From Renibacterium salmoninarum ATCC 33209 (GTDB lineage Bacteria > Actinomycetota > Actinomycetes > Actinomycetales > Micrococcaceae), in the NCBI RefSeq assembly GCF_000018885.1, contig NC_010168.1, forward strand, positions 930,001-994,000: DNA of 64,000 nucleotides, given 5' to 3'. A program made the translations under genes and the position numbers. The notes under the pieces were generated by a model. That model saw nothing but the letters and a program-made list of their open reading frames with translations, was not told where the DNA came from and did no database searches. Below, one piece after another: positions 6,867-25,334 of this stretch. Numbering within the stretch: position 1 is the stretch's first letter; each line of letters starts with the position of its first letter.

Positions 6867-7391
6867 ATGCTGGGTTCGAATCGAACTGACAATGGCGGAC
6901 TTGAAGTAGGGGAACTCGTTCCTGACTTCGAGTTGCCGAATCAGTTTGGCGAACCAATACAGCTTGCCGCGCAGCGCGGGAAAAATGTCTTGCTGGTCTT
7001 CTATCCTTTTGCCTTTTCTAGTGTCTGTACGACGGAGCTGAACGAGCTTGCAGAGCGATCTGCCGAGTTGATCCGCGCGAATACCGTGCTGTTGGCGGTA
7101 TCGGTTGATAGTAAGTACAGCCTGCGCGCGTACTCGCAGGCGCAGAAAATTTCCTTTGACTTGTTGAGCGATTTTTGGCCGCACGGGGCCGTAGCGCAAA
7201 AATTCAGGGTATTCGATTCCGTTCGCGGGATGGCCCAGCGTGGCACTTTCGCGATTGATGCTCTTGGCAGGCTCAGATCCAGCTTCTTTTCCGAATCTGG
7301 GCAGGCCAGGCCGTGGCAGGAATACCAAAAAGCGTTGGACTTGTTGGCTATCGAGGGGTCGCTGCAAAAAACGGACTTTATTGTGTCGTAA
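6867..7391 (+). CDS. AhpE-type peroxiredoxin
   Basis: A 174-residue thiol peroxidase of the AhpE/1-Cys group that reduces hydroperoxides in the cytoplasm. The peroxidatic Cys is residue 54 in FSSVCTTEL, and the thioredoxin fold is complete (VGELVPDFELPNQFG to the C-terminus). The ATG at 6867 fits the family N-terminus; upstream in-frame codons only overlap DUF3052. The last 12 codons and the stop lie inside a 48-bp sequence repeated at 17483-17530. The gene appears to have served as the integration site of the element to its right, with the coding sequence preserved. Confidence 0.88.
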   Translation: MLGSNRTDNGGLEVGELVPDFELPNQFGEPIQLAAQRGKNVLLVFYPFAFSSVCTTELNELAERSAELIRANTVLLAVSVDSKYSLRAYSQAQKISFDLLSDFWPHGAVAQKFRVFDSVRGMAQRGTFAIDALGRLRSSFFSESGQARPWQEYQKALDLLAIEGSLQKTDFIVS

Positions 7392-7401
7392 GGAAGCGGA
7401 C
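7354..7401. repeat. 48-bp direct repeat, left copy (putative attL)
   Basis: The sequence from 7354 to 7401 recurs in the same orientation at 17483-17530 with one difference (A at 7367, G at 17496). It covers the 3' end and stop codon of the peroxiredoxin gene. Direct repeats that preserve the 3' end of a gene are the usual footprint of site-specific integration. The region between the repeats holds conjugation genes and msa. The repeat is seen directly; calling it an attachment site is inference. Confidence 0.75.
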
Positions 7402-7749
7402 GGCGGTTTTGCCGGTTCGGTGGTCGCGTTTGCTTATCCAGCTGATTCCGGTGGCACCTGGATCAGCTTCTGTGGTGTGGGTTCCGGTCGAAAACCGGTT
7501 TGAAATATCCAGAATCCAAGGAAAGGATTCTTACGATGATGCGCACGGAAAATAGTGGCCCAGAAAATAGGTACAGTGTTTTCACAGGCCGGAAGGCCTG
7601 TGAAGGCTCCTCGGCGGGGCGGGGAAGCCCGCCGGGTGTGAGAAAAAAGGAAGACCCCGCGACTGTTTCGGCCTCGAAAACGGAACCAGTCGCGGAGTCT
7701 TTACCAACACCAAAACGAACCATTTCTTCGAACAAGAAGGACGCATTTA
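7392..7749 (+). other. Non-coding left end of the mobile element with three hairpins
   Basis: No convincing gene is present in these 358 bases. Hairpins: 7581-7604 (10-bp perfect stem, GGAA loop), a G/C-rich one at about 7611-7634, and 7651-7701 (15-bp arms, one mismatch). They precede the small membrane-protein genes that begin at 7750, which have a good AGAAGGA ribosome site. The structures could act as attenuators or terminators in the leader of the conjugation operon. That role is inference. Confidence 0.5.
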
Positions 7750-7821
7750 ATGTTTAAAAATCGTAGCAGAGTTTTCTCGGTAGTGGCCGTGGGTACCGTG
7801 CTAGCCGCTGGCGCGGCCTGA
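7750..7821 (+). CDS. Short peptide at the head of the conjugation gene remnant
   Basis: A 23-residue reading frame (MFKNRSRVFSVVAVGTVLAA, then GAA) starts nine bases after an AGAAGGA site and ends in TGA overlapping the next ATG by one base. It resembles the start of a signal peptide or membrane anchor that has lost its downstream part, so it may be a truncated gene rather than a real peptide. The tight overlap suggests translational coupling with the following membrane protein. Confidence 0.4.
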   Translation: MFKNRSRVFSVVAVGTVLAAGAA

Positions 7822-8048
7822 TGCTTCGTCTAATTTTTTTGGTTGTTCGGTTTTCTTCGTTGCCGGTCCGGTTGGCCGCATCGCGGGCGCGGCGACCTGG
7901 TGCTGGCCGTTGGTTTGCTCTGGTTGTTTTGCTTTGGTCTGTTGGCGGTTTCTCCATGTTGGCGGTGGCGTTGTTTCCGTGGTGGTCGAAGGTTTTGGCT
8001 GATGGATTCGGCGCGTTGTCCTCGTACATTAATGCGGGCGGCCACTAG
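7821..8048 (+). CDS. Small membrane protein of the conjugation module
   Basis: A 75-residue protein with two hydrophobic stretches (about residues 1-20 and 32-55) separated by a basic segment rich in Arg. The start overlaps the stop of the preceding peptide, and its stop directly abuts the ATG of the wall hydrolase. No family was recognised with certainty. Position suggests a small inner-membrane part of an actinobacterial type IV-like transfer system. The coding quality is moderate, and it could be a fragment. Confidence 0.5.
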   Translation: MLRLIFLVVRFSSLPVRLAASRARRPGAGRWFALVVLLWSVGGFSMLAVALFPWWSKVLADGFGALSSYINAGGH

Positions 8049-8612
8049 ATGGCTGGCAAGGTTGCTGGTGGTGTTGCCGTGTTGGCGGTAGCTGTGCCGA
8101 TTGGTTTGGTCTTGTCGTTGGTGGTGTTTTTTGGTGGTGCCGGTGCGGCGAATGCTGATTGTACTGGTCCTGCGGTGAAGGTCGATGCCGGCACTATTCC
8201 GGCCTCGATGGAGACACCAACCGGAACCTATCGGCATGAGCAGTTGTTGAATGCGGCGGCGGTCCTTAATGCTGGTGCAGGACATAAACCGGTGTTGTCT
8301 TTGCGTGGACAGGAAATTGGCGTTATGACGGCGTTGGGTGAGTCGTCGCTGGTTAATGTGGATCATGGGGATGCGGCTGGGCCGGATTCGGTTGGTTTGT
8401 TTCAGCAACGAGATTCGTGGGGGTCGCGGGCGGATCGTTTGGATCCGTTTAAGGCTGCTGGTTTTTTCTTTGATCGGCTATCAAAGCTGGAGGGCTGGGA
8501 GGCGATGGAGCCTTCTGCGGCAGCGCATGCTGTCCAGCGCAATGCTGATCCGGGCCATTACAAGCGCTGGTGGGCTACGGCGGTGCAAATTTCTGAGAAG
8601 CTTGCCGACTGA
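8049..8612 (+). CDS. Membrane-anchored lysozyme/transglycosylase-like hydrolase of conjugation
   Basis: A 187-residue protein with an N-terminal membrane segment (about 6-36) followed by an outside domain. The pattern GVMTALGESSLVNVDHGD, then GLFQQRDSWGS and the following helices, is typical of the lysozyme-like domain in cell-wall hydrolases of actinobacterial plasmids and ICEs, where the enzyme opens peptidoglycan for the transfer channel. The candidate catalytic Glu is in ALGESS. It lacks the NlpC/P60 or M23 domain that often follows in homologues, so it may be a shortened form. Lies between the small membrane protein and the VirB4-like remnant. Confidence 0.7.
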   Translation: MAGKVAGGVAVLAVAVPIGLVLSLVVFFGGAGAANADCTGPAVKVDAGTIPASMETPTGTYRHEQLLNAAAVLNAGAGHKPVLSLRGQEIGVMTALGESSLVNVDHGDAAGPDSVGLFQQRDSWGSRADRLDPFKAAGFFFDRLSKLEGWEAMEPSAAAHAVQRNADPGHYKRWWATAVQISEKLAD

Positions 8613-8622
8613 GCAGGAGCGA

Positions 8623-8916
8623 ATGAAAGCTCGTGGTTTCGTTGAACGGGCTGGCATGGTTTTCGCCGGTGTACTACCACGAGCGGAAATGGACAAACTC
8701 ACCGCCGCCGTCCCACTATCGAAAGCAGAAAAGGACCGCCTCGTCTCTTGGGCCGACCCAGGGTCGTGGACTGGTACCGGCAAAGCCGCCAGACCAGGCC
8801 TGGGCAAGTTCCTCATCAAAGTCGGTGGCAGGCCAGGGATCCCCACCCAGCTGCATCTGACCCAGGTCGAAGCGGACCTGAACGATACAAACAAGAAATG
8901 GGTGATGAGGGCATAA
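8623..8916 (+). pseudogene. C-terminal remnant of a VirB4/TraC-like conjugation ATPase
   Basis: The 97 codons (MKARGFVERAGMVFAGVLPR to NDTNKKWVMRA) resemble only the C-terminal end of the large ATP-binding protein of actinobacterial conjugation systems. In those proteins a segment like VGGRPGIPTQLHLTQVE, followed by DTNKKW, closes the protein. The ATPase motifs are absent. An AGGAGCG site and ATG just after the hydrolase stop would allow translation, but the fragment cannot be a working ATPase. A strong hairpin overlaps its stop codon. Probably the 3' end left by a deletion. Confidence 0.65.
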
Positions 8917-8953
8917 AAAATGCGCCCAACCAGGAGGGCGCATTTTTTATGCC
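8910..8953 (+). terminator. Rho-independent terminator
   Basis: Arms GGCATAAAAAATGCGCCC and GGGCGCATTTTTTATGCC form an 18-bp perfect stem with an 8-base loop. It overlaps the stop codon of the VirB4-like remnant. The T run lies in the right arm. It ends the short conjugation remnant operon. Confidence 0.8.
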
Positions 8954-9141
8954 GGAACGGCTTTAGCCGATCGGAGCCGGGAAAGGAATAACGTCCGGGC
9001 CGTACATCGGGGAGAGGGGAATGTAAGTTAGGAGTCATTTGAATGCACCTTAACTTTCTTGAGTAAAAAACTGTATCTATAGTTCACCGATTCGCTGGTG
9101 GCGATCCGTTGAACTGAACCGTTACCGGTTTCTTGCCGCTT

Positions 9142-10215
9142 TTATGCGAGTCCCTGCACCGGTTGGGCCGGGATGGTTTCTTTAGCGTAATACACTACTT
9201 CGTGTTCTGTCGGTGGGATGTCTCCGATGCTGGTGTGTAGGCGGTCGTTGTTGTACCAATCGATCCAGGCCAAGCTGGCCCATTCAACCTCATCGATGGT
9301 TTTCAACGGCCCGTTGCGGAAGGGAGAATCTTCTCGGACGGCTTCAGTCTTGAACAGGCCGATGGTGGACTCGGCCAAGGCGTTATCGTAGGCGTCCCCG
9401 ACAGAGCCGATTGATGCTGCGATGCCCTCCAGAGTCAGGGTTTCCCCGAAATGCAAGGAAGTGTACTGGGACCCGGCGGCGGAATGATGGATCAGCCCTT
9501 CTGCGACCGGATGCCTGGTGCGTGTCCGCTGCCATAAGCCCATCCTGAGTGCTGTGCTCACCAGGGCGGTGTCCTTGATCGTGGAGATGTTCCAGCCCAC
9601 GATGTACTTGGAGAAACAATCAATGATGAACGCGACATAGACGAAACCTGCCCAGGTGCGCACATAGGTGAAGTCCGCAACCCAGCGCTGATTTGGGCCA
9701 GCTGCGGTGAAGCACCGATCCAATAAATCCGGGGCACGGTCATGGTTTCGGTCCGGCACCGTGGTGCGCACACCTTTGCCCCGTACCCGGCCTTTCAAAC
9801 TCAACAAGCTCATGAGCCGGTTCACCTGCCGGTAAGAGACCTCGAATCCTTTCCGACGCAGCCAAGCCGTCATTTTCCTCCTCCCGTACATTCCCTCCGG
9901 TGTCCCTACCGTTCCTAGCAACGCATCCATAACCGAAGCCTCTGCCATGTCCCGGACCGAAGCGGTGGAGACCTTCCAACTACGGTAGGTCCGGGCAGTG
10001 ACCGTTAAGCCCTGGCCACGCAGGACCTTGCAGATCACCTCGACTGCCCAGCCAAGGAAGCGTTGTTCATCGATGAATCCCCTGATCAATGCTTCGCGGG
10101 GGTCGAGTTCCCCCGCGAAGAAAACCGACGCAGCCTTCACAATCTCTAACGACTCACGCAGCTCACGATTCTCACGTTTGAGCGCACGTACCTGCTCCGA
10201 TTCCGTCGTGGACAT
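9142..10215 (-). pseudogene. IS3-family transposase catalytic part with Asp-to-Ala change
   Basis: A 357-codon frame with the rve integrase core. The D,D(35)E triad should be Asp181 (WVADFTY), residue 246 and Glu282 (LAEST). The second position is Ala (HHSAAGSQY, codon GCC at 9478-9480) where the family has Asp; the spacing to Glu282 is exactly 35. The frame is continuous with the upstream HTH part at 10240-10398 except for one TAA at 10240-10242. Members of this group normally join the two parts by frameshifting, so the same-frame arrangement with a stop is itself unusual. Probably inactive. Confidence 0.8.
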
Positions 10216-10239
10216 CCCTACCCTGGTCCCGGCATCAAT

Positions 10240-10398
10240 TTAGGCCTGCCTCACCCAACGACGTAGGGATTCCTTCCCAACCCCGACTTTGCCGCCCACA
10301 GCAGCACAAGCAGCCATCAACGATGGATACTCCTGGAGATGATCCAAAACCAGCCGCACCGACCTGTCCCGAACCTCCCGCGAAAACTTCCGATTCAT
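10240..10398 (-). pseudogene. IS3-family transposase N-terminal HTH part, cut by TAA
   Basis: 52 codons encode a typical HTH_Tnp_1 domain (MNRKFSREVRDRSVRLVLDH to KESLRRWVRQA), followed by TAA in place of the GAA (Glu) seen in relatives at RQAEIDAG. The frame then continues without interruption into the catalytic part. A G-to-T change would explain the stop. With the stop, the DNA-binding domain is separated from the catalytic domain. Confidence 0.7.
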
Positions 10399-10462
10399 AA
10401 CCATCAATACTTCCTTCCAAACTCAAAAGGAAGCGGCATAAAACCGGTAACGGTTCAGTTTA

Positions 10463-10644
10463 CCAGGCACGGCCAAGGTGCCGGGTTCCCGGCAGGGGTG
10501 TATTGGTGCCTGTTCGCCATGGTTGTTGTGGCGGCAGTTTTGCTGCACGCACATAAGTGGGCCATGGCCCGGCTGAAAACAAAATACCCGCTACCGGCGG
10601 CACCATCGGCAACCAACCAGCCGCCTACTGGCGGCGGATCGTGA
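10463..10644 (+). pseudogene. Membrane-protein 3' fragment next to the IS end
   Basis: The frame leaving the IS encodes about 60 residues with one hydrophobic segment (VYWCLFAMVVVAAVLLHA) and a Pro/Gly-rich tail, ending in TGA that overlaps the GTG start of the VirD4-like gene (GTGA). It looks like the 3' end of a small conjugation membrane protein cut by the IS. The missing 5' part was not found on the other side of the IS. Family not recognised. Confidence 0.45.
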
Positions 10645-12308
10645 GCGCAACCACGAAACGAAGAAATCCCGGCGGCGGGGCGAACATGGCCGTGCTTTAT
10701 CTAGCCATGTTCGCCCCGCCGCTTCCGCCGGTTTATACCTGTTTGTTTGGCTAGGAACTATATGGTCTGGACAGAAATTCGTTCCAGTTAATCCGTTTAA
10801 CCTGGCCGTAGATCTCCTCCAAGGCAAACGTGTCTGGTTGCCGCAATCCTCAACCGCCGCCGTGTTGATCGGTGCGACTCTGGTCGTTGTCCTGACGCTT
10901 TGGTTAGTGGTCAAGGTTCGCAAACGTTCCGGTTCAGTACCGGTAGACCGTGCAGCGACCCATATGGGTCGTGGCGGCCGGATTCGGGCTTTACTCCGGC
11001 CAGCGGTAGCAGCGAAAGCGAAACGCTTCGGCATGGACCAGAAAAAGCATCCTGGCCTAGAAGTCGCCCGGACAGTTACCGGCAACCTGCCACTGCATTC
11101 GTCCTGGGAAGATACGTGCCTGGATATTCGCGGACCAAGAACTTCTAAAACAATCTCCAGGGCCATACCGGCGGTACTGAGCGCTCCTGGCGCGGTGGTG
11201 GCAACCTCGAATAAAACCGACCTCGCCGACGCTTGCACCGGGCCACGGGCGAAGGTCGGCACGGTCTGGTTGTTCGATCCGCAAAACCTCCGCAACACCG
11301 CGACGGAACCTACCTGATTCTACAATCCGCTAGCAGCTTGCAACACACCTGAGGCGGCGCACGAGTTGGCAGAATTCTTCAACAAAACCGGCCAAGAACT
11401 AGGCTCGCGCGGCGACGACCCGTTTTTCGCCGCCGCAGCGGTAGATCTTTTATCCGATATGTTCCTGGCCGCGAACGTAACCGGCCAAGGCCTAGGCACC
11501 GTTTTCGGCTGGCTCACCAGTTTCGAAGCCGCTGAGGAGGCGGAAGTAGCGCTCAAAACCTTTAACTATGGAAGCGCAAAGCAAGCGGTTGGCAAGTAAC
11601 CGGACGTTAACAGAGAAAACCAGGGACGGTGTTTACGCCAAAGCACGGCAGGTTCTTTCTTTCGCTGCTTCGCCATCGTTGTTGGCTTGGTGCGAACCGG
11701 GCCAAGCCAAAGAGCCGTTCGATCCAGTCGCGTTCGTAGGATCCACCGACTCGTTGTTTCTGCTTTCCCAAGAAGGTACCGGCAGTGCCGGACCAATTGT
11801 TGCCGCACTGGTGAAGGCTGTTTTGTCGGCGGCGGAGAAGAAAGCAGCCACCAACGGTGGACGGCTACCAGTGCCACTGGTAGCGGTTTTGGATGAGGCG
11901 GCGAACATTTGCCGGATACCAGAACTGCCCGACAAATATTCGCACTACGGCTCGCGTGGGATCATGCCGATCACGATCCTGCAATCGTACGAGCAAGGCG
12001 AAGAAGCCTGGGGGAGGGCCGGTATGGCGAAACTGTTCTCCGCCGCGAACCTGACCACCGTCGGCGGAAGCATCACCTCCACCGATTTCCTTAAACGAGT
12101 CTCCGATTTAATCGGCACCTACCAGTACAACGAACGTACTGTTTCCTACAATTCCGGTGGACAAGGACGCCCAGGCGGAACGTCTATCGGAAGCCAACGA
12201 CATACCGAAAACATTCTCGAAGTTTCCGACCTTGCCGCGCTACCGGCAGACCGGATCGTCGTTATTTCCTCGGCCTGCCCGCCAGTATTAGCGAAAACCA
12301 CGCCATAG
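10641..12308 (+). pseudogene. VirD4/TraG-like conjugation coupling ATPase, multiply broken
   Basis: Adding the frames together gives an almost complete coupling protein: N-terminal membrane part (MAVLYLAMFAPPLPPVY), the nucleotide-binding segment with GPRTSKTISRAIP, and Walker B VLDEAANICRIPELP followed by SHYGSRG. Lesions: frameshift near 10740, in-frame TGA at about 11315-11317 where EPT should continue with Trp-Phe-Tyr, and a frameshift near 11575-11600. The Walker A also has Ser where GPRTGKT is expected. The product would recruit the relaxase-DNA complex to the channel; it cannot be made here. The start overlaps the previous stop. A strong hairpin lies in the 5' part. Confidence 0.8.
10673..10721 (+). 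repeat. 18-bp perfect hairpin inside the 5' end of the virD4-like gene
   Basis: Arms 10673-10690 and 10704-10721 (CGGCGGGGCGAACATGGC and its complement) enclose a 13-base loop. It lies inside the codons for the first membrane segment, close to the frameshift. It could hinder translation or end transcription early. It may also be only a by-product of the coding sequence. Confidence 0.5.
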
Positions 12309-12350
12309 GTTTAAAAACAGACAGTTGAAACAACGAAAGGAAACAACGTA

Positions 12351-12761
12351 ATGGAAGCCGACCTTGCAGACAGCAGCATCGATACCGCCACCGGCGAAAT
12401 TACCGAACAACGACCGGAAAACATCTTCGATGCACCGGCAAAGCAAAAAGAACTCAACGTTTTTGTGGAAGCGATTCGGCAAATTGTTCCGGCATGCGGC
12501 GAATGGCCGAAATGGTGCAACCAGTGGCAGGAACATCCAGAAGCCGTCCAACGCTTCCATGCTTTATTCCTTGCAGCCGGGCAAGTACAAAAGAAAGAAA
12601 TTTCTTTATCGGCGTGGTGGCTCGAGCACTGGGACAGACACAAGTCAGCTTTGTTCGATACCTACGGCGTGTTCCGCCGGTGCAGCCCGGAAGACCATAC
12701 CGACAATCCGTATCCATCAATGCGGAAAAAACAGGCCGCCAATCCAGCCGCCACCGCTTAG
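12351..12761 (+). CDS. DUF4913 family protein
   Basis: A 136-residue protein with the DUF4913 signature (WPKWCNQWQEHPEAVQRFHA, later SAWWLEHWDRH and DTYGVF). These proteins of unknown function are common next to coupling-protein genes in actinobacterial plasmids and ICEs. The ATG follows AAAGGA at suitable spacing, 42 bases after the virD4-like stop. The frame is intact, one of the few undamaged genes of the element. Confidence 0.75.
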   Translation: MEADLADSSIDTATGEITEQRPENIFDAPAKQKELNVFVEAIRQIVPACGEWPKWCNQWQEHPEAVQRFHALFLAAGQVQKKEISLSAWWLEHWDRHKSALFDTYGVFRRCSPEDHTDNPYPSMRKKQAANPAATA

Positions 12762-12907
12762 AGCTCGGCGGCGTTCTGCTTGCTATATGACATGGCTGGG
12801 GTGTTGGCGCGGGCGCGTGCTTGTCGCGCCTACTCAGCCACCCATTTAGGGTCTTGCGATAATTCAAATTGCTTGTCGGACCATAATTCGGAGTCCTCGG
12901 AGCCGAG

Positions 12908-15059
12908 TTAGGGCTTTTTCGGTTCCTCTCCAAGAGAGTAATATTCGCGCGCTTCGGTTTGGCCTTGTTCGGCTTTCTCAAGCTCGACGATGTTGGCTTC
13001 CGCCTCCACGACCTCTGGGTGCTCTTTCAGAAACCGTGGAATCGGCGTATTTTGCTCCGCGTACCGTTCAGCAACATGCCGGACGGTCTTCTCATCGAGT
13101 GGCACCGGAACGGCTTCGCCTATCTCGGTGCGGAAATCTTTCTTCGCTGTTTCGAACGCGGCAGCTGCTTTCTTCCGACTAAAAACACCAGCCTGTTCCG
13201 CATGAGCCTTGGCTTCTCGTACCGGGAGAATAGCGGCCTCATACTCCGCCAACGCCTCAGCCCGACTGGTTTCCTGGAGGGTCTTAATCGTCTGCTGAAG
13301 TTCTTCCCGCGCAGCATAGATGCGCGCCCGGGCGGCCTCGAGATCGTCCAGCCAGCGTCCGGCGGAGCGCAGTCCGGAGGCCTCGCACCGTTCTTTGTGC
13401 TGGTCGTACTTTTCCTTCTCCGCGTAGTAGCGCGCCCATTCGGCTTCGCGGCGTTGCTCACGAATCGTTTCCTCTGGCGCAACTGCCGCCTGGTCCGGTA
13501 GATGTTGCTGGCCGGAGCTGTACAAATCCAGTCCAGCAATTTCTCGCTCCACCGCGATACCGGCTTTTTCCAGCCCACGATCCGCACGGTCAGTAGCCAT
13601 CATCTGAACAAATTGTTTTTGCGCGTCCTGGGCATCGGTGGCGACCATGTGCAGCGTGTTTGCCTGTCGGCCACGAGTCAGACCAACATAAGCCGCTGCG
13701 GCGTCCATGCCGTTACCGGCATATACGGAACCATGAGCCACTGTCGTGCCTTGAACGCCGTACACGGTGCTGGCGTAGCCAAGATGCGTATTCTCGTTCA
13801 CATACTCAGCTGGCAGGCGCTTGTTCTGGGCTTTACTGTTTCCGGCTTCCCGGACGTTCACTGAGCCGTCGGAGCGGACTTTGGCTACCTCGTAGAGTTC
13901 ACGGTTGGCAACGCCAAGGTCGGCATCATTTTTGCGGACTTGGATGACATCGCCGTGGCGTAGGCGGATTTTGTCCATTCCGGCCACTTCGTACTTCGCG
14001 ACCCGTGTCCTGCCGGTAGCTGCCATCTCGGCCTGGATGGCCTCGTTCAGTGTTTTTGCTTGCTCGTTCGTCGCTGCCGCCACCGCTACCGATTCGCCAG
14101 CACGAACAGACCGTGCCGCATCAGCGGCTATCGCTGCAAAAGCTGCTTCCTCGTCGGGGTGCAAAACAATGTTTCCGCGCCCGTGAAGAGTTTCGAATAG
14201 TTCAGCTGGATTCTCCCTGTCCCGCAACTGGATCGACAGGTCTGCGTATTCTTGGTCGGCGAATCGGCGAATCGGTGGACCGTGGCCATGTCCACCACAT
14301 TCTCGCCGACAGCCTGCACAGCGGTGTCGAGCACACCGCCACGACCGACCGCCGGCAACTGCGCACGGTCACCAACCATCACCAGCGACGCACCATGTTC
14401 TTCGACCAGTTCGGTCACCGCTCTGGCAGTGTCCTGATCCAACATCCCGGCCTCATCAACGACCACCACCGTCGAAGCCGAGAGTTGTTTGTCCTGGTGT
14501 GGGCCTTCAAAAATTTCACCAGTACTCGTATCGGCCTCAACCAACCCCCAGCCGGTGGAACCGGCCATTGGCGTTCCACCGGAACCCATTGGCATACAAC
14601 AACGTAATGCACGCTAGAAGCCTCCGCGCCGGTCGCGGCCTGAGCTTCCTGCGCCGCTTTCAACGTCGGAGCAACCACGACCATGGACCGGCCCTTGACC
14701 TCCAACCCGGTCTTCGCAGCGGCTAGGACCGTGGTTTTCCCCGAACCGGCAGCACCCTCAACAACCACCAACCGGGCCGCGCCCGTGATCGCTGCACAGG
14801 CTTGTTTCTGCCCGGCATCCAACCCCTCCGGCGGAACAAAAGCGGCCCCCGTATGGACACGAACCTCCGCCTGCACCAACACGGCCAACCCAGTCCGAAC
14901 AGCATGCTCCGTATCAATCACATGCTGGGAGGTGAAATGCCGAACGAAATCCGGCACAAACCCGTCCAGTCGCGGATCAGCAATAGATTTACGTTCATCC
15001 GGCAGCAATCCCGGCCACCTCGGCCACAAACGAGCCGATTTGTTCCCGGTTTTCGACAA
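12908..15059 (-). pseudogene. TraA/MobF-type relaxase-helicase, helicase part only and frameshifted
   Basis: Three frames together encode a RecD-like superfamily 1 helicase: Walker A VEGAAGSGKTTVL, Walker B VVVVDEAGMLD, GDRAQLPAVG, and the late motifs VYGVQGTTVAHG and YVGLTRGRQANTL. A charged coiled-coil C-terminus follows. Frameshifts lie near 14590-14610 and 14235-14260. The N-terminal TrwC relaxase domain with its nicking Tyr is missing. The frame is lost within about 40 bases of the msa start codon, so the junction with the msa segment probably removed it. It reads away from msa. In intact elements this protein nicks oriT and unwinds the transferred strand. Confidence 0.85.
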
Positions 15060-15063
15060 CGGG

Positions 15064-15100
15064 ATGGCTTTCGCTGGTGCGCTGTGGTAAAATAAAAGCT
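15064..15100 (+). promoter_or_regulatory. Putative msa promoter with almost no leader
   Basis: TAAAAT at 15088-15093 is a good -10 box. A weak -35 (TGGCTT, 15065-15070) is 17 bases upstream. The ATG of msa is only seven bases after the -10 box, and no Shine-Dalgarno sequence is present. A transcript from this promoter would be leaderless or nearly so. The promoter sits on the junction with the truncated traA gene. Confidence 0.45.
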
Positions 15101-16777
15101 ATGAAAATAAAAAAAATTTTAGCGCTGACTGCAGTCACTGCAGTCACTTTTTTTGGGGTGGCTCCTCTTGCGCAAGCTTCGCAAGGTGAAGGGAATTCTT
15201 CCACTTCAACAGTACAAGGCTTCAGCAGTGTTAACATTTTTCAACAGGGTGGTTATTCTGCTTTCTTTCACGAGTTAAGGCCTGACGGGACCTCCAGCGC
15301 CGCAGGAGGACCAGTTGCAGCTGGTGGCTCTTATAGTTCTGGTGATTTAGGTAAAAAGGGCTTCGAAGACGGAGATCTTGTTGTTCCCGTAGTAAACGCG
15401 GTTTTTGGAAATGAGCAAAAAGGAAGCTCCTTTGTTTATAACAAAGATGGTCCTGCCAAGGAACTGAAAGTCTGGGGGACGACTCTAAACGTAGGTTTCG
15501 GGTGTAACGATAATGCGCCATCCCCAATGGGATGTGGCCCGGCAAATAAACCTGTTGCATCCGGACTTCAGCCTCCGGCGGGTCCTCTTGGCGGCGGTAC
15601 TGTGGTGAAGGTGGATGGCAGCAACCTATTCGGCGCATCGCAAGTCTCCTTTGGAGACAAACCGGGAACGGACATTGCCGTCGCTCAGGATGGTAACTCG
15701 TTGACTGTAAAAACACCAGCAGTAGATGCCGCTGGCCCGGTAAAGGTTACAGTCACTAACCCCGGTGGGGAGACGGTAACGTACGAGAGTTTCCACTACT
15801 TCGGAAGCGCCCCGACAGCAGCAACTCTCGAGCCTAAGACTGGGCCTCGTGACGGCGGTACTGTGGTGAAGGTGAATGGCGGCAACCTATTCGACGTATC
15901 GAGAGTTACCTTCGGAGACAACGAGGCAACGGAAATTCACATCGCGCAGGATGGCAACTCGTTGACTGTAAAAACACCAGCAGTAGATGCCGCTGGCCCG
16001 GTAGAGGTTAAAGTCTCTACACCTAACGGTTCCGCAACAGCAACTGACAAATTTGAATACGTGGGTAGTGACCAACACCCAGATATCCATGCACCAGATG
16101 GAGCAACTCCGGTTACTGGTAAATGGTGGTCTGGCGACAACAACACGTATGGTGGATGGTTCAAGGACGGCCAATGGGTACTGCAAAAGCCAAATGCTGG
16201 TTCCGTTTCAGTTGCTTTTGGTAATCCCGGTGATACTCCTGTCACAGGTGACTGGGATGGTAAAGGTCGATTTGGTATTGGCGTTGAGAGAGGCGGCCAA
16301 TGGTATCTATCGAATGCTGGAACTTCTATTGGTAAAGTAACAGCGATCGTTGCTTTTGGTAATCCCGGTGATACTCCTGTCACAGGTGACTGGGATGGTA
16401 AAGGTAAAACATCGATTGGTGTGACACGGTCTACTGCTAATGGATTAGAGTGGTATATTACATCAGATCTAACCACTGCCAATCCGCCTGTTTCCTATCA
16501 TTTCATATTCGGAAATTCTACTGATGCCCCAATTACTGGGAACTGGATCGGGACTGCAAAAACCCAGGTTGGGTTACATCGTGAGAATAGTATTTTGATT
16601 AGTTACGATGCCCAGACTGTTGCCTCAACCCATGTCTTTGGTAATGCTGGGGATGTTGCGGTAACTGGTCAGTGGAATGGTGAGGGTAAGACGAGTTTCG
16701 GTGTTTTTGAGCACTCCTCCGGAGCTTGGAAACTATCTAATGACCTTAGCGGAAAAATAGATATTACCTTTAACTAA
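15101..16777 (+). CDS. msa: Major soluble antigen p57 (TIG/IPT and FG-GAP-like repeat surface protein)
   Basis: A 558-residue secreted protein. The signal peptide is MKIKKILALTAVTAVTFFGV then APLAQASQ (cleavage about residue 26). After a unique N-terminal domain come two TIG/IPT-like repeats (about residues 151-236 and 237-322, each with GGTVVKV, QDGNSLTVKTPAVDAAGPV). Then follow five short repeats (about 323-558) with the pattern FGNPGDTPVTGDWDGKG. This architecture and size match the published description of R. salmoninarum p57, an abundant secreted and cell-surface agglutinin and immune modulator. The ATG at 15101 is preferred over the upstream ATG at 15077 because it begins the signal peptide. 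The gene is visibly richer in A/T than the neighbouring core genes, as expected for acquired DNA. It lies inside the repeat-bounded element. Confidence 0.9.
   Translation: MKIKKILALTAVTAVTFFGVAPLAQASQGEGNSSTSTVQGFSSVNIFQQGGYSAFFHELRPDGTSSAAGGPVAAGGSYSSGDLGKKGFEDGDLVVPVVNAVFGNEQKGSSFVYNKDGPAKELKVWGTTLNVGFGCNDNAPSPMGCGPANKPVASGLQPPAGPLGGGTVVKVDGSNLFGASQVSFGDKPGTDIAVAQDGNSLTVKTPAVDAAGPVKVTVTNPGGETVTYESFHYFGSAPTAATLEPKTGPRDGGTVVKVNGGNLFDVSRVTFGDNEATEIHIAQDGNSLTVKTPAVDAAGPVEVKVSTPNGSATATDKFEYVGSDQHPDIHAPDGATPVTGKWWSGDNNTYGGWFKDGQWVLQKPNAGSVSVAFGNPGDTPVTGDWDGKGRFGIGVERGGQWYLSNAGTSIGKVTAIVAFGNPGDTPVTGDWDGKGKTSIGVTRSTANGLEWYITSDLTTANPPVSYHFIFGNSTDAPITGNWIGTAKTQVGLHRENSILISYDAQTVASTHVFGNAGDVAVTGQWNGEGKTSFGVFEHSSGAWKLSNDLSGKIDITFN
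16211..16267 (+). repeat. 57-bp exact direct repeat in msa, first copy
   Basis: Identical to 16349-16405. Both encode VAFGNPGDTPVTGDWDGKG in two of the five short repeats. Exact identity at DNA level, while the other repeats have diverged, points to recent duplication or gene conversion. Confidence 0.9.
16349..16405 (+). repeat. 57-bp exact direct repeat in msa, second copy
   Basis: Exact copy of 16211-16267 in the same frame, 138 bases downstream (46 codons). Recombination between the two would remove or add one repeat without shifting the frame. Confidence 0.9.
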
Positions 16778-16862
16778 GGTTTATTAAATCCTTAAATGAA
16801 AAAAGCCCATCCACTGGATGGGCTTTTTTCATTTAAGGATTTAATAAACCTTAGTTAAAGGT
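16766..16862. terminator. 97-bp perfect palindrome at the msa 3' end
   Basis: Arms of 48 bases (16766-16813 and 16815-16862) are perfectly complementary around one central base. The core AAAAAAGCCCATCCACTGGA and its mirror form a rho-independent terminator usable from both sides. The arms also include the last codons and stop of msa, so the right arm repeats the end of the gene in inverted orientation. This suggests a tail-to-tail duplication (see findings). Confidence 0.85.
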
Positions 16863-16965
16863 TGTTGGCTTTTTAGGTAACAGGTGTTGATTCAGGTAAG
16901 ACGGCAACGCCGGATGCATTCTGTAAGAAGTCTAGAAACTAGTCTTCATGGCGGCTTGGCGACTA

Positions 16966-17433
16966 TTAAAGAAAGCCACAAACCGTCTGCTGGGCCTGCG
17001 CAGGCTGGAAAACTGTTGGAGAATTCACTGGAGGATCGGTTTTGAGGTCTGCGATGTGTTTTCCATCAAACGTGGGCCAAGCCCCCAGAACACCATTTAC
17101 CAGTAACCGGAGTTGCTCCATCTGGTGCATGGATATCTGGGTGTTGGTCACTACCCACGTATTCAAATTTGTCAGTTGCTGTTGCGGAACCGTTAGGTGT
17201 AGAGACTTTAACCTCTATCGCGATGTGAACGTCCGTTCCCTGGCAGGACCATATTTTTTATAAACAAAAGAAGGTCCTTTGACCGCGTCGGGATTCCCAT
17301 CAGGCTTGAATTCTTGGAAGTAAGCAGAATAACCACCATGTTCGAAAATGTTAACTCTGCTGTAGCCTTGAAGCGAGTTAAGGGGGCTGATGCAGGTTTG
17401 ATGGGGTATTTCACCACTAGCCCTCAACCACAA
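16966..17433 (-). pseudogene. Inverted, internally deleted second msa copy
   Basis: On the minus strand, 17433 to about 17225 encodes a diverged version of the msa N-terminal domain (SRVNIFEHGGYSAYFQEFKP against SSVNIFQQGGYSAFFHELRP, and later SFVYKKYGPA against SFVYNKDGPA). After a stop, 17217 to 17085 is a virtually exact inverted copy of msa bases 16002-16134 (end of the second TIG repeat and start of the short repeats, one mismatch). The signal peptide, the first TIG repeat and almost all short repeats are missing, and the frames do not join. It cannot make an antigen. Orientation is tail-to-tail with msa. Confidence 0.8.
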
Positions 17434-17482
17434 AAAAAATTACCGCTGGTCTCTGTAGTTGGTTAGACTGCAACGAAGTTAT

Positions 17483-17530
17483 AGGGGTCGCTGCAGAAAA
17501 CGGACTTTATTGTGTCGTAAGGAAGCGGAC
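17483..17530. repeat. 48-bp direct repeat, right copy (putative attR)
   Basis: Same sequence and orientation as 7354-7401, one mismatch at 17496. Here it is not attached to an intact peroxiredoxin gene; the upstream flank is unrelated. It closes a segment of 10.1 kb. A serine-recombinase fragment begins 45 bases to the right. Confidence 0.75.
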
Positions 17531-17575: not shown

Positions 17576-17921
17576 CTAACCATTGCTCTGTTTGATTATT
17601 CGTCGGCCTTGAGGGCGGAGCTCGCCGGTGGGTGAGACGTATCGGTAGAGGGTTTGGCGGGAAACACCGATTTCCTTGGCGAGATTCCCGATATGAGTCT
17701 CGGGCTGGCCCATGGCAGACATCGCGAGTCGGATCTTCGCTGGCGTCATCGTGAAGGGCCGTCCGCCCTTGCGTCCCCGGGCCCTGGCTGAAGCCATGCC
17801 GGCTTTGGTGCGTTCGGAAATGAGTTCACGTTCGAACTCGGCAAGTGCGGCAAAGATGCCGAAGACAAGCTTCCCTGCCGCCGTTGTCATATCGATTGCC
17901 GCCCCTGCCCGGTTAGGACCC
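17576..17921 (-). pseudogene. Serine recombinase (resolvase/invertase type), C-terminal fragment
   Basis: About 115 codons encode the end of the catalytic domain with the long E helix (AAGKLVFGIFAALAEFEREL ISERTKAG) and the DNA-binding HTH (IGNLAKEIGVSRQTLYRYV). The N-terminal part with the catalytic Ser is missing because the IS994-like element begins at 17922. The fragment lies just outside the right 48-bp repeat. Small resolvases of this kind usually act on res sites or inversions, so a role in integrating the element is uncertain. Confidence 0.85.
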
Positions 17922-17971
17922 TGAATCGCCCCGGTGTGTCCGGAGACTTTCTTGTTTGAGAGGATCAGGAC

Positions 17972-18337
17972 ATGGCAGGGAAAACTACGACACGGTATCC
18001 GCAGGAGTTGAAGGATCGTACGGTGCGCATGGTGGCGGAGATGGAGGGTGCGTCTTCGGAGTGGGCGGCGATGCAAAAAGTTGCCCAGCTTTTGGGTGTG
18101 GGTGTGCCGGAAACGGTGCGTAAATGGGTCCGGCAAGCCGAGATCGATGTTGGTACTAGAACTGGAACAACGAGCACGGAATCGGCCGAGCTGAAACGGT
18201 TACGGCGTGAGAACGCTGAGCTGAAACGGGCGAACGCGATCCTTCGGAGTGCTTCAGCTTTTGTCGCGGTCGAACTCGACCGCCACAACACTGATCGTGA
18301 AATACATCAAGGACCATGCCGGTCACCGCGAGAATAA
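17972..18337 (+). CDS. IS994-like OrfA, copy 1
   Basis: 121 residues with an N-terminal HTH_Tnp_1 domain (RYPQELKDRTVRMVAEMEGA, ETVRKWVRQAEID) and a leucine-zipper-like segment (ELKRLRRENAELKRANAIL). It binds the element ends as part of the OrfAB transposase. The natural end for this family would be soon after VELDR. Here the frame runs on to TAA at 18335-18337 and is the same frame as OrfB, which is unusual (see findings). Confidence 0.8.
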   Translation: MAGKTTTRYPQELKDRTVRMVAEMEGASSEWAAMQKVAQLLGVGVPETVRKWVRQAEIDVGTRTGTTSTESAELKRLRRENAELKRANAILRSASAFVAVELDRHNTDREIHQGPCRSPRE

Positions 18338-18346
18338 TGGATTGCG

Positions 18347-19237
18347 GTGGGGTGTCGAGTCGATCTGCCAGGTGCTTACTGGGACGGGGTGAAGACCACC
18401 CCGTCCACGTACTACGAATGGGTGGATAAAACACGATCTCACCGAGAACAACGTGATGAGGTGCTCAAGCCCGTGATCCAGAAGGTGTATGCCGCTAATT
18501 ACGGGGTTTACGGCACCAGGAAAGTCTGGTTGGCGATGAACCGTGAAGGTGTGCCGGTGGCCAGGTGCACGGTAGAACGGCTCATGGGGTTACTTGGCAT
18601 ACAGGGTGCGGTCCGTGGCAAGGTCAAACGCACCACGATCAAAGACTCGAAGGCGGCCCGAGCGAAGGACTTGGTCCGCCGTGATTTCACACCAACGGCA
18701 CCGGATCGGCTATGGGTAGATGATTTCACCTATGTTTCGACCTGGTCCGGGTGGGTCTATGTTGCCTTCGTGATCGATGCTTACTCTCGGAGGATCCTGG
18801 GCTGGTCAGCGAGTGCTTCTATGAACACCGTGCTAGTGCTCAACGCAGTTAATCAGGCAATCTGGAGTCGTGAACGGGCCGGGGCTGAGATTTCCGGGGT
18901 GATTCATCATCACGATGCCGGGGCTCAATACGCCTCCTTGGCCTTCACCGAACGCCTGGCCCAGACCGGTATCCGCCCCTCGATCGGTTCTGTGGGTGAT
19001 AGTTACGACAACGTCTTGGCGGAAACCATCAACGGGCTTTATAAGACCGAGCTGATCAAACCCGGCAAGCCCTGGCGGACTCTAGAAGAAGTCGAAATCG
19101 GCACCGCTGAATGGGCCGATTGGTACAACCACCGAAGGCTCTACCAGTACTGCGGAGACATCCCACCAGTAGAGCTAGAAAACCACTACTACAATCACTA
19201 CCAGAGCACGGCAGCCGCCGACAGGCTCATCGTCTGA
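18347..19237 (+). CDS. IS994-like OrfB transposase, copy 1
   Basis: 296 residues with the rve integrase core, close to IS6110 OrfB (TINGLYKTELIKPGKPWR and RRLYQYCGDIPPVELE are almost the same). The catalytic triad is present: Asp in DDFTYVS, Asp in HHDAGAQY, Glu in LAETING, with D(35)E spacing. The first motif reads VDDFTY where copy 2 has VADFTY. Translation would need an internal GTG start or stop readthrough, because OrfA ends in the same frame nine bases upstream. Whether it is active is uncertain. Confidence 0.8.
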   Translation: MGCRVDLPGAYWDGVKTTPSTYYEWVDKTRSHREQRDEVLKPVIQKVYAANYGVYGTRKVWLAMNREGVPVARCTVERLMGLLGIQGAVRGKVKRTTIKDSKAARAKDLVRRDFTPTAPDRLWVDDFTYVSTWSGWVYVAFVIDAYSRRILGWSASASMNTVLVLNAVNQAIWSRERAGAEISGVIHHHDAGAQYASLAFTERLAQTGIRPSIGSVGDSYDNVLAETINGLYKTELIKPGKPWRTLEEVEIGTAEWADWYNHRRLYQYCGDIPPVELENHYYNHYQSTAAADRLIV

Positions 19238-19264
19238 GAAACCCTCAGGACACACCGGAGCGAT

Positions 19265-19618
19265 TCAGTCCACCACGGCGTCGAACATCAAAAGCGAAAC
19301 ATTCTGTTGCAGCCGCATCGCATCTTCTTGCGCATCGGAGAATCGAAAGAAGATTCCGGCGCTCCGGGCCAGCTCCCGATTATTCGAGGTGAGAAGTCGC
19401 CAAGCAAAGACGCGATCCACATCTAAGTTGTCCATGAAGTTCTGCGGTTCAACGACCTGCCAGTTTGGATTTGATGTCTCTGCGTTGACGCCATCTGCTG
19501 TGGCGAATCCACCGATTAGCTGCCCTTGCACCACTCGGTTTCGGTGCCGAAGCCAGCTATGTAAAACAAGGTCCTGGGCGTTGCCGAAAGAGGCGATCAT
19601 GATGCGCACGACAGACAT
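19265..19618 (-). pseudogene. Hypothetical protein truncated by the IS994-like copy
   Basis: The frame starts MSVVRIMIASFGNAQDLVLH at 19618 and ends in a stop formed by the last bases of the IS (19265-19267), so the C-terminus is lost. The N-terminal part reads like a small soluble protein. No family was recognised. The missing 3' part is not on the other side of the IS, where the recombinase fragment lies, which agrees with a deletion between them. Confidence 0.55.
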
Positions 19619-19649
19619 GGAGGCACTCCGAATATGGCCGAAAAAAGAA

Positions 19650-19683
19650 GAAGCTCCCAAGGCTTCTAACCATTGGGGGCTTC
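19650..19683 (-). terminator. Rho-independent terminator on the minus strand
   Basis: Arms 19650-19660 and 19673-19683 pair with one G-U. On the minus strand the stem is followed by CTTCTTTTTTC. It closes the 84-residue gene at 19754-20008. Confidence 0.75.
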
Positions 19684-19753
19684 GCTGAATTCGGCACCAG
19701 GCTTACATTAAGAAAGCGCGTCCGGTGGGTTAACTTTGTCGCTCAGGAAATCC

Positions 19754-20008
19754 TCAGCTGGCGCTTGGCTGCTTCACGATTCGAATCTGGTCATCGGCGA
19801 GGAGCATCGTGCGGCCTTGACCGTGATCCAGATGTATCCAGACCACCGAAAAATCTGCGGTGTGCTCGTCGACAACGCCAACTGAACTGCCACCATGGGG
19901 GTATTCCAGCCGAATTCGGTCACCGGGCCGAAGCTTGGTAAGCAGGCCGTCCTTAGTCCGAAAGTCTTCGATGTGCTTCTGCTGCGAAACTATATTGCTG
20001 TGTTTCAT
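19754..20008 (-). CDS. Hypothetical protein, 84 residues
   Basis: A small soluble protein (MKHSNIVSQQKHIEDFRTKD, later LRPGDRIRLEYPHGGSSVGV). The middle resembles a short SH3-like beta barrel (GDRIRLEYP, VDEHTADFSVVWIHLDHG). The frame is intact and followed by a good terminator on its strand, which supports it as a real single gene. The upstream GGAGGCGC site before the ATG is suitable. Function unknown. Confidence 0.65.
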   Translation of the reverse strand: MKHSNIVSQQKHIEDFRTKDGLLTKLRPGDRIRLEYPHGGSSVGVVDEHTADFSVVWIHLDHGQGRTMLLADDQIRIVKQPSAS

Positions 20009-20087
20009 AGCGCCTCCCCAAGCGATGGTCTTTGTTCAATATGCAATGAATCGGAGCCTAGCTGACGGGGATGAACTGCTGGTGAAC

Positions 20088-21002
20088 TCAGGCAGGCAGC
20101 TTAGTGTGGGTGAGAGTTTCGGCAACGTTCCAAAGTCTGGCGGCTACCTCGTCATTACGCATGGTGCGATTCAATCCGGCGACTCCGGTGGGGCCAACCA
20201 AGCCAAACTTTCCGGAGGGGCCGTAATAGCCTTTGTTGATTGCATCGGGGCTTGTTGCCGCATAAAGCATTGGCTCTGCGCCTTGTTCCACATCTTGTGA
20301 AGGCAGAATATTGAGCCGAGTGAACCAGGCGTTAGCAGGCTTCTCGGGGCCCAAGCTGGCGCCAGCCGTCTGTAGGTTGGTGTTGGTGTATTCGGGGTGC
20401 GCGGCATTGCTCATGAGGTTCCAGTTCCGCGCCAGTGCGACGTCGGCCAGGCGGCGAGCCAGCATCAAATCGGCCAGCTTAGATTGTGAGTAGGCCGGGA
20501 CGCTGCGGTAGCGACGTTGCCAGTTGAGGTCATTGAAGTTGATACGGCCAATGTTCGCCATCCCGGAGCTCATCGTGGTGATTCGAGGATCTTGGGCTTT
20601 CAGAATCAGTGGAAGCAGCCGATTGGTCAGCGCAAACGGCCCCAGGAAGTTACTGCTGAATTGCAGTTCAAAGCCGTCTTTTGTCTCGTTCCTCGACGGC
20701 GGAGTCATCACACCTGCATTATTGAGCAGCAGGTCAATTGGGCGGTCATCGGCGAGCAATCCACTCGCGAAATCTTCGACGCTGGCTAGATCGGCAAGGT
20801 CGACTCGTCGAACTTGCAATTGGGCCCCCGGATTAGCGCGTCGAATCTCAGCAGCGGCAGCCTCACCTTTTTCTGGGCTGCGGACTGCCATGATGATCAT
20901 CGCCCCGGCTGCGGCGAGACGCTTGGTGGCTTCTTTGCCGGTTCCGGAGTTCGCTCCGGTGATTACCGCAAGCTTTCCGCTCTGATCTGGGAAATTCTAC
21001 AT
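20088..21002 (-). pseudogene. Short-chain dehydrogenase with a stop at codon 2
   Basis: A 305-codon SDR of the retinol-dehydrogenase-like group. The NAD(P) motif TGANSGTG, the NNAGVM motif and the active-site YSQSK with the upstream SSG are all present. The natural ATG (21000-21002) is followed directly by TAG (20997-20999), probably AAG originally. The next in-frame ATG (20900) comes after the dinucleotide-binding motif, so any product would lack it. Initiation at a non-ATG codon upstream cannot be excluded. It is divergent from a broken TetR gene and shares an intact palindrome with it. Confidence 0.85.
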
Positions 21003-21030
21003 GATTTCCGAGCCTTTCCAAAAGTTTCTA

Positions 21031-21089
21031 AACTGGTTGGTTGATAATCTAGTAAAGTCCGGTCTCACTTGTTTGTCAACTAACCAGTT
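21031..21089. promoter_or_regulatory. Inverted-repeat operator between SDR and TetR genes
   Basis: AACTGGTTGGTTGA at 21031-21044 and TCAACTAACCAGTT at 21076-21089 are inverted repeats with one mismatch, centred in the 101-base divergent gap. Such repeats with ACTGGTT/AACCAGT halves are typical TetR-family sites. Both flanking genes are broken while the site is kept. Confidence 0.65.
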
Positions 21090-21103
21090 AGTAATATGTT
21101 GTT

Positions 21104-21666
21104 ATGGCTAGAGATGCACAGGCAACGAAGCAACGACTGTTAGAAGCTGCTGTCCAAGAATTCTCCCAGTACGGCATTGCTGGCGCCAGGGTGGATCGAA
21201 TCGCGGCCGTGGCCGGTATCGAATAAGGTACAGATTTATACCTAGCCTTTGCTTCCAAAGACGGGCTTTTTGATGCAGTTTTTGACGCCATGGTGATCGC
21301 GTTGATTGACGAGGTGCCGATTGATCCTTCGGAATCTTTCTGGCTATGCGGGGAGGCTGTTTGATTTTTCACTGGCTAAATCGGAGAAGATGCGTCTGGT
21401 GTTTTGGGACCAGTTAGAGCGCCAAGGTAAGGGAATTCGCAGTACTGAAAGTGCTGGCCGCGGGTGCGTGCAAAGAAGCTGCGCTGAAGCAGGTACAAGC
21501 TGAAGGATTGATCTCAGACCAATTGACTGCGCAGACGCTGCACCTGATGATCAGTGCCTTGGTGACGCAAGCAGTGTTTCAACTGCAGCCTGGCCACGGA
21601 ACTGCCGAACGCAAGTCGCTGCGCGCTTCTGTGCTGACCGCCGTCGGGCTGCTTAGCAGACCTTAA
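21104..21666 (+). pseudogene. TetR-family regulator, multiply broken
   Basis: The N-terminus is a normal TetR HTH (TKQRLLEAAVQEFSQYGIAG, VDRIAAVAGI) but a TAA follows at 21224-21226. The next segment (SKDGLFDAVFDAM) is in the same frame. A frameshift near 21325-21340 leads to SGYAGRLFDFSLA, and another near 21440 leads to the C-terminal helices (LAAGACKEAALKQVQAEGLI). At least three lesions. It would have repressed the divergent SDR gene and itself through the palindrome in the gap. Confidence 0.85.
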
Positions 21667-21694
21667 TTTTAGTTCTTTATCGCAGGGGCTTGCG

Positions 21695-21710
21695 TTGGAG
21701 TGCACTCCAA
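21695..21710 (+). promoter_or_regulatory. MerR-type operator in front of the aldo/keto reductase
   Basis: The perfect 16-bp palindrome TTGGAGTGCACTCCAA lies between a -35-like TTGCGT and a -10-like TAGCGT spaced 19 bases apart. That is the layout of MerR-family promoters, where the activator twists an over-long spacer. No MerR gene is adjacent, so the regulator would be elsewhere or lost. Confidence 0.5.
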
Positions 21711-21752
21711 GTCGTAGCGTGAAGCTATCGATACTTCAGCGAAAGGAACGCC

Positions 21753-22735
<983 letters not shown>

Positions 22736-22744
22736 TTTGCTCTT

Positions 22745-22807
22745 CCACTTGTGCGCAGTTGAGTAGGGTATCTCGGTGAAATACCCTACTCAACTGCGCA
22801 CAAGTGG
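22745..22807. terminator. 27-bp perfect hairpin after the aldo/keto reductase
   Basis: Arms 22745-22771 and 22781-22807 are perfectly complementary with a 9-base loop. The plus-strand stop lies nine bases before. It resembles the hairpin at 3313-3369 in length and position, with no T tract. Confidence 0.75.
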
Positions 22808-22848
22808 CAACGAAGCCAGCCGGAGCGACGAAGTCGCCCCCCCCTAAA

Positions 22849-22892
22849 CGTAAAACGTGGGCGCACCTCGAAAGATGCGCCCACGTTTTACG
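22849..22892. terminator. Bidirectional terminator between two aldo/keto reductase genes
   Basis: Arms CGTAAAACGTGGGCGCA (22849-22865) and TGCGCCCACGTTTTACG (22876-22892), perfect 17-bp stem, 10-base loop, with T-rich bases in the arms. It probably serves the minus-strand gene. Confidence 0.75.
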
Positions 22893-22900
22893 GCTAAAGA

Positions 22901-23735: not shown

Positions 23736-23798
23736 AGAGATCTCCTTGATTGTTGCTTACTTAAAGCGGCAACTGACATGTTTGGCGAGATATTCCGC

Positions 23799-24794: not shown

Positions 24795-24808
24795 GGTCTA
24801 TTATCTGC

Positions 24809-25279: not shown

Positions 25280-25307
25280 ATGTTCAGTATGCACCCTGTT
25301 GAAAAGC

Positions 25308-25334
25308 TCAAATTGATCAAAATCATCAATTTGA
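25308..25334. promoter_or_regulatory. Palindromic operator between Lrp-type regulator and MFS exporter
   Basis: TCAAATTGAT (25308-25317) and ATCAATTTGA (25325-25334) are perfect inverted repeats with 7 bases between. The site is 29 bases upstream of the regulator start, in the divergent gap. It fits an A/T-rich Lrp/AsnC site; the assignment is inference. Confidence 0.65.

Follow-up and report, generated by a model that had tools for sequence, protein, structure and literature searches.

Features of the msa2 locus

We analyzed a stretch of 64,000 nucleotides (the window) of the Renibacterium salmoninarum ATCC 33209 genome, corresponding to positions 930,001-994,000 of the single contig of 3,155,250 bases. 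The window contains msa, the gene for p57, the main antigen of this salmon pathogen, in a segment of about 10 kb that lies between two copies of a 48-bp direct repeat. Msa copies have been printed at 110,400-112,901 and 945,077-947,575 (PMC5320689); these coordinates agree with this genome, and the copy in the window is msa2 of that paper. A preliminary description of the locus read the repeats as the attachment sites (attL/attR) of a decayed conjugative element. The analysis below indicates that they are, with high probability, terminal inverted repeats (TIRs) of Tn3-family transposons. The features of the locus, in window coordinates, are the following (IS, insertion sequence; ORF, open reading frame).

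6867-7391, plus strand: peroxiredoxin gene (AhpC-TSA, 2e-30); TIR A supplies the stop codon and the final 12 residues, the first of these in part
7355-7392, plus strand: TIR A, a terminal inverted repeat of the Tn3 family, 38 bp long; its interior lies on the right, and its outer 5 bp are ATCGA
7393-7821, plus strand: stretch adjoining TIR A on its inner side; its bases 7402-7741 are present again at a third TIR locus elsewhere in the genome
8049-8612, plus strand: wall-hydrolase remnant; of the CHAP-type hydrolase found on Arthrobacter plasmids the lysozyme-like part is left, and the CHAP part is missing
8593-8919, plus strand: transfer-gene fragment, like the C-terminal part of a 539-amino acid gene product encoded next to SCO6880 on plasmid 2 of Arthrobacter FB24
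9113-10460, minus strand: IS3-family insertion sequence (transposase 9142-10215), which interrupts the transfer region
10838-12308, plus strand: remains of a VirD4/TraG-like coupling protein, broken into pieces that match at 10943-11515 and 11586-12305
12351-12761, plus strand: DUF4913 gene, recognized by Pfam; the DUF4913 protein of plasmid pChr15 gave no tblastn match at E 0.01
12908-15059, minus strand: broken remains of a MobF relaxase, corresponding to about residues 395-877 of the pChr15 protein (1069 residues) and truncated by the msa block
15063-17483, plus strand: msa block with the msa2 ORF (15077-16777 as listed); G+C 47.8%
17484-17521, plus strand: TIR B, the second Tn3-family repeat of 38 bp, oriented like TIR A with its interior on the right; its outer 5 bp are TTATA
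17579-17905, minus strand: C-terminal fragment of a Tn3 resolvase (TnpR), residues 104-212, 89% identical to the TnpR of the element in the relative G374
17921-19268, plus strand: insertion sequence present in high copy number; it truncates the resolvase, and the 3 bp on its two sides are unlike
19329-31070, no strand assigned: chromosome colinear with the CorA region of the relative G114 (from 20130 also of G026), not with the peroxiredoxin region

Nature of the 48-bp repeat

Recomparison of 7354-7401 with 17483-17530 bore out the repeat as it was first described: both copies have the same orientation and differ by a single base. Apart from these copies, no ungapped alignment of the 48-mer to the window, on either strand, has fewer than 20 mismatches, which rules out a chance origin. 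The repeat is composed of a 38-bp sequence and 10 neighboring bases. The 38 bases, which begin at 7355 and 17484, start with GGGGTC and end with TAAG. We take this layout to be typical of Tn3-family TIRs, and it prompted the tests described here.

The same 38-mer was found as an inverted pair around a transposase and a resolvase in two relatives. One of these is a plasmid of Pseudarthrobacter psychrotolerans (NZ_CP047900.1; the stretch analyzed is labeled L068). Its pair, at 9002-9039 (plus strand, 5 mismatches) and 16570-16607 (minus strand, 7 mismatches), encloses a resolvase reading frame that lacks annotation (77% to the TnpR of G374) together with an annotated Tn3 family transposase, and is flanked by the 5-bp duplication TACCA. 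As a control, TIRs with shuffled bases were run against this stretch, 20 for each threshold and with as many as 13 mismatches allowed; none of them matched. The other relative is G374 (stretch L096), in which the pair L096:3201-3238 and 10914-10951, with 2 mismatches each, is flanked by the 5-bp duplication GTCAT; this unit carries a resolvase and a transposase (PF01526, E 2e-144; NF033527, 1044 bits). The resemblance is not restricted to the TIR, because end B is 87.7% identical to the G374 end across all 437 bp up to the IS, the resolvase fragment included. Hence the locus shares with both units the 38-bp TIR GGGGTCGCTRCAGAAAACGG...TAAG and a resolvase adjoining the TIR. It differs from them in that only ends remain here, in direct orientation and with no transposase match. 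The 5-mers on the outer side of these ends are ATCGA (A) and TTATA (B), and the partner ends are missing.

A scan of 395 genomes of the family, allowing up to 3 mismatches, detected the TIR pattern in 6 of them, R. salmoninarum included. The latter has three TIRs in all, because a third copy (TIR C) joins the two that were first described. The pattern was not found in the genomes G026, G054, G097, G114 and G129 of the same genus; G077, also of the same genus, carries the pattern twice, with its peroxiredoxin on a different contig. The Tn3 transposase domain PF01526 gave 0 matches in the R. salmoninarum genome at E 0.01, in a search whose control was positive in 2 of 14 genomes.

On the inner side of TIR A, the stretch 7393-7821 resembles the transposon end of a relative over about 63 bp only, a figure that includes the TIR. 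When it was searched in 197 family genomes, with no more than three candidates scored in each among the matches listed, it was recovered from the R. salmoninarum genome only, twice. A search of plasmids with the TIR A DNA returned as sole match 41 bp from an Arthrobacter alpinus plasmid, and a search of phages returned no match.

From these data we consider it very probable that the 48-bp repeats are outer ends of Tn3-family elements. The two remnants, A and B, face the same way and bound a mosaic of end-A DNA, a transfer region like that of pChr15, and the msa block. As a whole, the 10-kb segment does not constitute an intact Tn3 transposon. The Tn3 nature of its boundaries is apparently new with respect to the open-access literature, which our searches covered.

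Several observations weigh against this interpretation. In the window the TIRs point in the same direction instead of forming an inverted pair, and both are without a partner, which leaves the mobile units without definable limits. The interiors of A and B differ beyond about 54 bp; they are thus not two copies of one end, unlike in a simple cointegrate. A and C share 7 bp (CTATCGA) outside the TIR, which is rarely expected of independent insertions. A match to the tyrosine recombinase family PF00589 lies at 925,828-926,349, 10.5 kb to the left of the peroxiredoxin gene and about 4 kb to the left of the window. Finally, the PrgI protein, the ParA-like ATPase, DUF4913 and several hypothetical proteins of pChr15 have no match at E 0.01.

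Left boundary and chromosomal flanks

The preliminary description placed the left repeat at the 3' end of an intact peroxiredoxin gene. The repeat does cover the last codons and the stop, and the reading frame is open. The repeat begins within residue 163 of the 174 residues of the protein, and in 104 of the 106 relatives with a peroxiredoxin match the alignment stops at residue 165 or before (the exceptions stop at 166 and 170). Since the tail beyond this point is supplied by the repeat, the C-terminus, judged from these alignments, is probably not the native form.

If the repeats were attL and attR, relatives without the element should show an empty site with one repeat copy and the right flank beside it. 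The best-scoring 29 of the 106 peroxiredoxin loci were inspected for the TIR, Sir2 and tRNA-Val. The TIR was missing from all 29, even when 13 mismatches were allowed. Sir2 was present at 27 and tRNA-Val at 26 of these loci. The distance from the peroxiredoxin to CorA, the marker of the right flank, could be measured in the three relatives that have both genes on one contig; it amounts to 650 kb in G114, 578 kb in G129 and 595 kb in G026. In G097 and G054 the genes are on separate contigs, which makes these genomes uninformative on distance. The Sir2 orthologue of R. salmoninarum itself is located at 2,963,645 (2.96 Mb) and has an IS at its broken 5' end. Because the flanks match loci 578-650 kb apart and Sir2 is elsewhere, the segment occupies a rearrangement junction rather than one split site.

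The attL/attR layout does not hold up under these results, since the repeat is a Tn3 TIR, the flanks are not adjacent in relatives and the interval has no tyrosine integrase. The corresponding explanation, in which an integrase put a conjugative circle into the 3' end of the peroxiredoxin gene and thereby created the 48-bp direct repeats, has in its favor that the repeats are direct, that the left one is located at the end of a gene and that transfer genes lie between them. However, the same sequence serves as a Tn3 TIR in other genomes, the repeat is absent from the 29 loci, and the flanks of the three relatives are far apart. As to relaxase and type IV secretion genes, the interval holds remnants of the hydrolase, of VirD4 and of the MobF helicase, and the relaxase domain is unmatched. 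No tyrosine integrase was detected in the interval, and large serine integrases were not searched genome-wide. Matches to PF00589 in the genome are confined to 925,828 and 691,276, and the sole recombinase seen at the segment is the Tn3-type resolvase fragment just outside the interval. Taken together, we regard integration of this kind as highly improbable. The recombinase at 925,828-926,349 is possibly a Xer recombinase.

The broken peroxiredoxin-Sir2 locus can also be viewed from its other side. The stretch L081:9400-14070 (genome about 2.964-2.969 Mb) carries the Sir2 half of the ancestral arrangement, with an IS where it breaks off. According to the coordinates printed in PMC5320689, the p22 region is the stretch next to this Sir2 half, between two IS copies. 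A single locus was thus broken in two, with the msa2 region on one half and the p22 region on the other. We considered whether the msa2 side and the Sir2/p22 side had exchanged DNA reciprocally through their IS copies, which is unsupported; an NRPS-like gene (identified by eye) follows past the second IS. The neighbor gene of G114 had no match in the R. salmoninarum genome at E 1e-20, in a search that lacked a positive control.

Transfer-gene remnants

The hydrolase, VirD4, DUF4913 and MobF remnants of the segment stand in the same order as on pChr15 (Arthrobacter sp. Chr15, NC_010492.1; MOBF, MPF_T), where the hydrolase, VirD4 and DUF4913 genes are likewise followed by mobF on the opposite strand. 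The difference is one of completeness: only pieces are present here, the PrgI protein and the ParA-like ATPase are unmatched, and the msa block cuts mobF. Only the helicase half of MobF remains, with the relaxase domain not matched.

Most of the gene content first proposed for the interval, i.e. a MobF helicase, an IS, DUF4913, a VirD4-like protein and msa, is confirmed. Two entries need correction. The hydrolase lacks its CHAP part, and the likeness to VirB4 is weak: the parent gene of the fragment at 8593-8919 scores far below the curated cut-offs, and the similarity lies in a part of that gene other than the one that the fragment represents. The suggestion that msa arrived as cargo of a decayed conjugative element is similarly retained in part. 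Msa2 does lie among decayed transfer genes in pChr15 order, but boundaries of the attL/attR kind are not supported. Transfer genes that flank msa2 are already reported in PMC5320689.

The msa block

The two msa copies were compared across the whole block. The msa2 block equals the msa1 block except for bases 16814 and 17471, both of which are outside the ORF. A review (PMC7602803) states that msa1 and msa2 differ by one amino acid. Identity between the copies stops exactly at the start of TIR B, while the msa1 copy runs on past TTATA into other DNA. The G+C content of the remaining parts that were measured is between 53.7 and 59.7%, as compared to 47.8% in the block. Large inverted repeats (15999-16134 and 17085-17220) and a 97-base palindrome with one central base (16766-16862) occur in and after msa; the palindrome and repeats there have been described (PMC5320689).

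Next to msa1 (stretch L026) we detected, at L026:8944-9135, a fragment of the same transfer gene as at 8593-8919, 4-195 bp from the 5' boundary of the msa block. The portion of PMC5320689 available to us mentions transfer genes for msa2 only, and the fragment beside msa1 is apparently new. The two copies adjoin different transfer-gene remnants, namely MobF at msa2 and the relative of the 539-amino acid FB24 gene at msa1. The fact that both abut such remnants favors the view that msa once resided on a plasmid, or that the msa block has moved about inside DNA of plasmid origin.

A search for relatives of msa gave 301 proteins at E ≤ 0.001 among 7994 candidates scored. Among the 120 matches listed, with its own record set aside, none covers more than 50% of the query, which indicates that these matches are at the domain level.

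The third TIR locus

TIR C was found when the repeat was sought elsewhere in the genome, as the preliminary description had proposed. It lies 392 kb away on the opposite strand, at genome positions 1,328,979-1,329,016, and the locus spans 1,328,600-1,329,020 (L024:14200-17030, minus strand). This copy leads into the same 340 bp (7402-7741) as the left copy, with 98.5% identity over 7348-7741.

Inside the TIR, past the 340 bp, there is a reading frame with six SdrD B-like stretches and, by eye, an LPXTG-like end. Where the shared 340 bp stop, at L024 about 16632, the sequence looks by eye like the very end of the IS at 9113-10460, which would fit a deletion linked to an IS at this point. Outside the TIR is a truncated NmrA-like gene; its 72-residue query found no close orthologue in 7 relatives, with matches of 42-47% in 4. 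We also asked whether C is the missing partner of one of the other ends. As two ends of one insertion, A and C would need the reverse complement TCGAT, and both read ATCGA; B and C have the outer 5-mers TTATA and ATCGA. Both pairings were rejected.

Assembly of the segment

Direct Tn3 ends around plasmid DNA suggest a replicon fusion by replicative transposition or a recombination between Tn3 copies. In such a route an msa-bearing plasmid piece would have been joined to the chromosome by one of these processes, the Tn3 cores would have been lost later, and IS recombination would have rearranged the right side. We propose this course of events tentatively. A course in which two independent Tn3 insertions simply came to lie near each other has about the same likelihood, and a single genome cannot choose between the scenarios.

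In its strict form the fusion would be an unresolved cointegrate, in which an msa plasmid with a Tn3 was fused by replicative transposition, so that direct transposon copies flanked the plasmid DNA and were later mostly deleted. The ends are indeed direct around plasmid-derived DNA, and unlike outer 5-mers are expected, with A as the new target and B as the old donor site. Consistent with this, TTATA at msa1 is followed by different DNA, as would be seen at an uninterrupted site. Copies of one transposon should, however, agree with each other, and the interiors of A and B do not after about 54 bp, which leaves the cointegrate as a possibility that falls short of an even chance. The same divergence, and the occurrence of a third TIR elsewhere, are in line with separate insertions into the peroxiredoxin gene and downstream of msa2 that were joined by IS recombination and deletions. 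The IS at 17921-19268 has no matching flanks, and the flanks of the segment come from two chromosomal loci, as this explanation would have it. The direct orientation would then be accidental, and several separate events would be needed to set plasmid DNA exactly between both ends; we hold this explanation, too, to be possible rather than probable. A further alternative is that the transfer fragment and msa travelled as cargo between ends A and B. The elements of G374 and Pseudarthrobacter each have a third, direct TIR that encloses cargo, G077 has two direct TIRs around an ORF of 1389 amino acids, and PMC4133298 describes for TIME-COMP2 that Tn3-derived modules in the same orientation mobilize the intervening DNA. 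Yet the cargo is on the tnpA side in the relatives and on the tnpR side here. A tnpA fragment stands beside the outer TIR in the Pseudarthrobacter stretch and beside one TIR in G077, so these additional TIRs may be the remains of further Tn3 copies and not a constant component of a single element. In R. salmoninarum no far TIR or target duplication is left, and the genome has no Tn3 transposase match. We consider such a cargo unit unlikely.

Direct Tn3-type TIRs enclosing cargo were seen in three family records (L096, L068 and L097, the last being G077). In L096 the direct TIRs are at 3201 and 7030, beside the Tn3 core, and their cargo has a GDSL lipase domain. The extra TIR of L068 gives an inner copy at 12949-12991 and an outer one at 16570-16607, with cargo annotated as SipW-type and signal peptidase genes. 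The cargo in several cases looks like genes for cell-surface or secreted proteins, a judgment made partly by eye. One could speculate that a Micrococcaceae Tn3 lineage with extra direct TIRs is a cargo-capture system by which msa (p57) passed between the Renibacterium chromosome and a conjugative plasmid, although we rate this broader proposal lower still. If it were true, further cargo would be represented by the 1389-amino acid ORF of G077 and by the adhesin of SdrD type next to TIR C.

Comparison with known systems and implications

ISArsp6 of Arthrobacter sp. FB24 is a cousin of the two Tn3 units described above; compared by transposase alone, it is 58% identical to those of NZ_CP047900.1 and G374. 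Arthrobacter plasmids, among them those of FB24, carry Tn3 elements with cargo (PMC2991359). A similar arrangement is that of the mobile insertion cassettes and TnXax1 of Xanthomonas, in which virulence genes are located between Tn3-family TIRs with or without transposition genes (PMC6304161). The Xanthomonas cassettes are bounded by an inverted TIR pair, in contrast to the direct TIRs of the window. In TIME-COMP elements, as described in PMC4133298, Tn3-derived modules flank cargo, in one kind with the same orientation, and make 5-bp duplications; there each TIME has a TIR at both ends, whereas here one TIR stands on each side. With this single direct TIR on each side the segment belongs neither to TIME-COMP nor to the mobile insertion cassettes.

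The findings also show that a direct repeat at the 3' end of a gene can mimic an att site, and that a transposon end can provide the last codons and the stop of a gene.

The protein p57 is the main antigen of bacterial kidney disease, and its origin is called unclear in PMC5320689. The Tn3 boundaries bear on this open question of where msa came from. They shift it away from an integrase and an excised circle, and toward which plasmid-borne Tn3 carried or fused this DNA.

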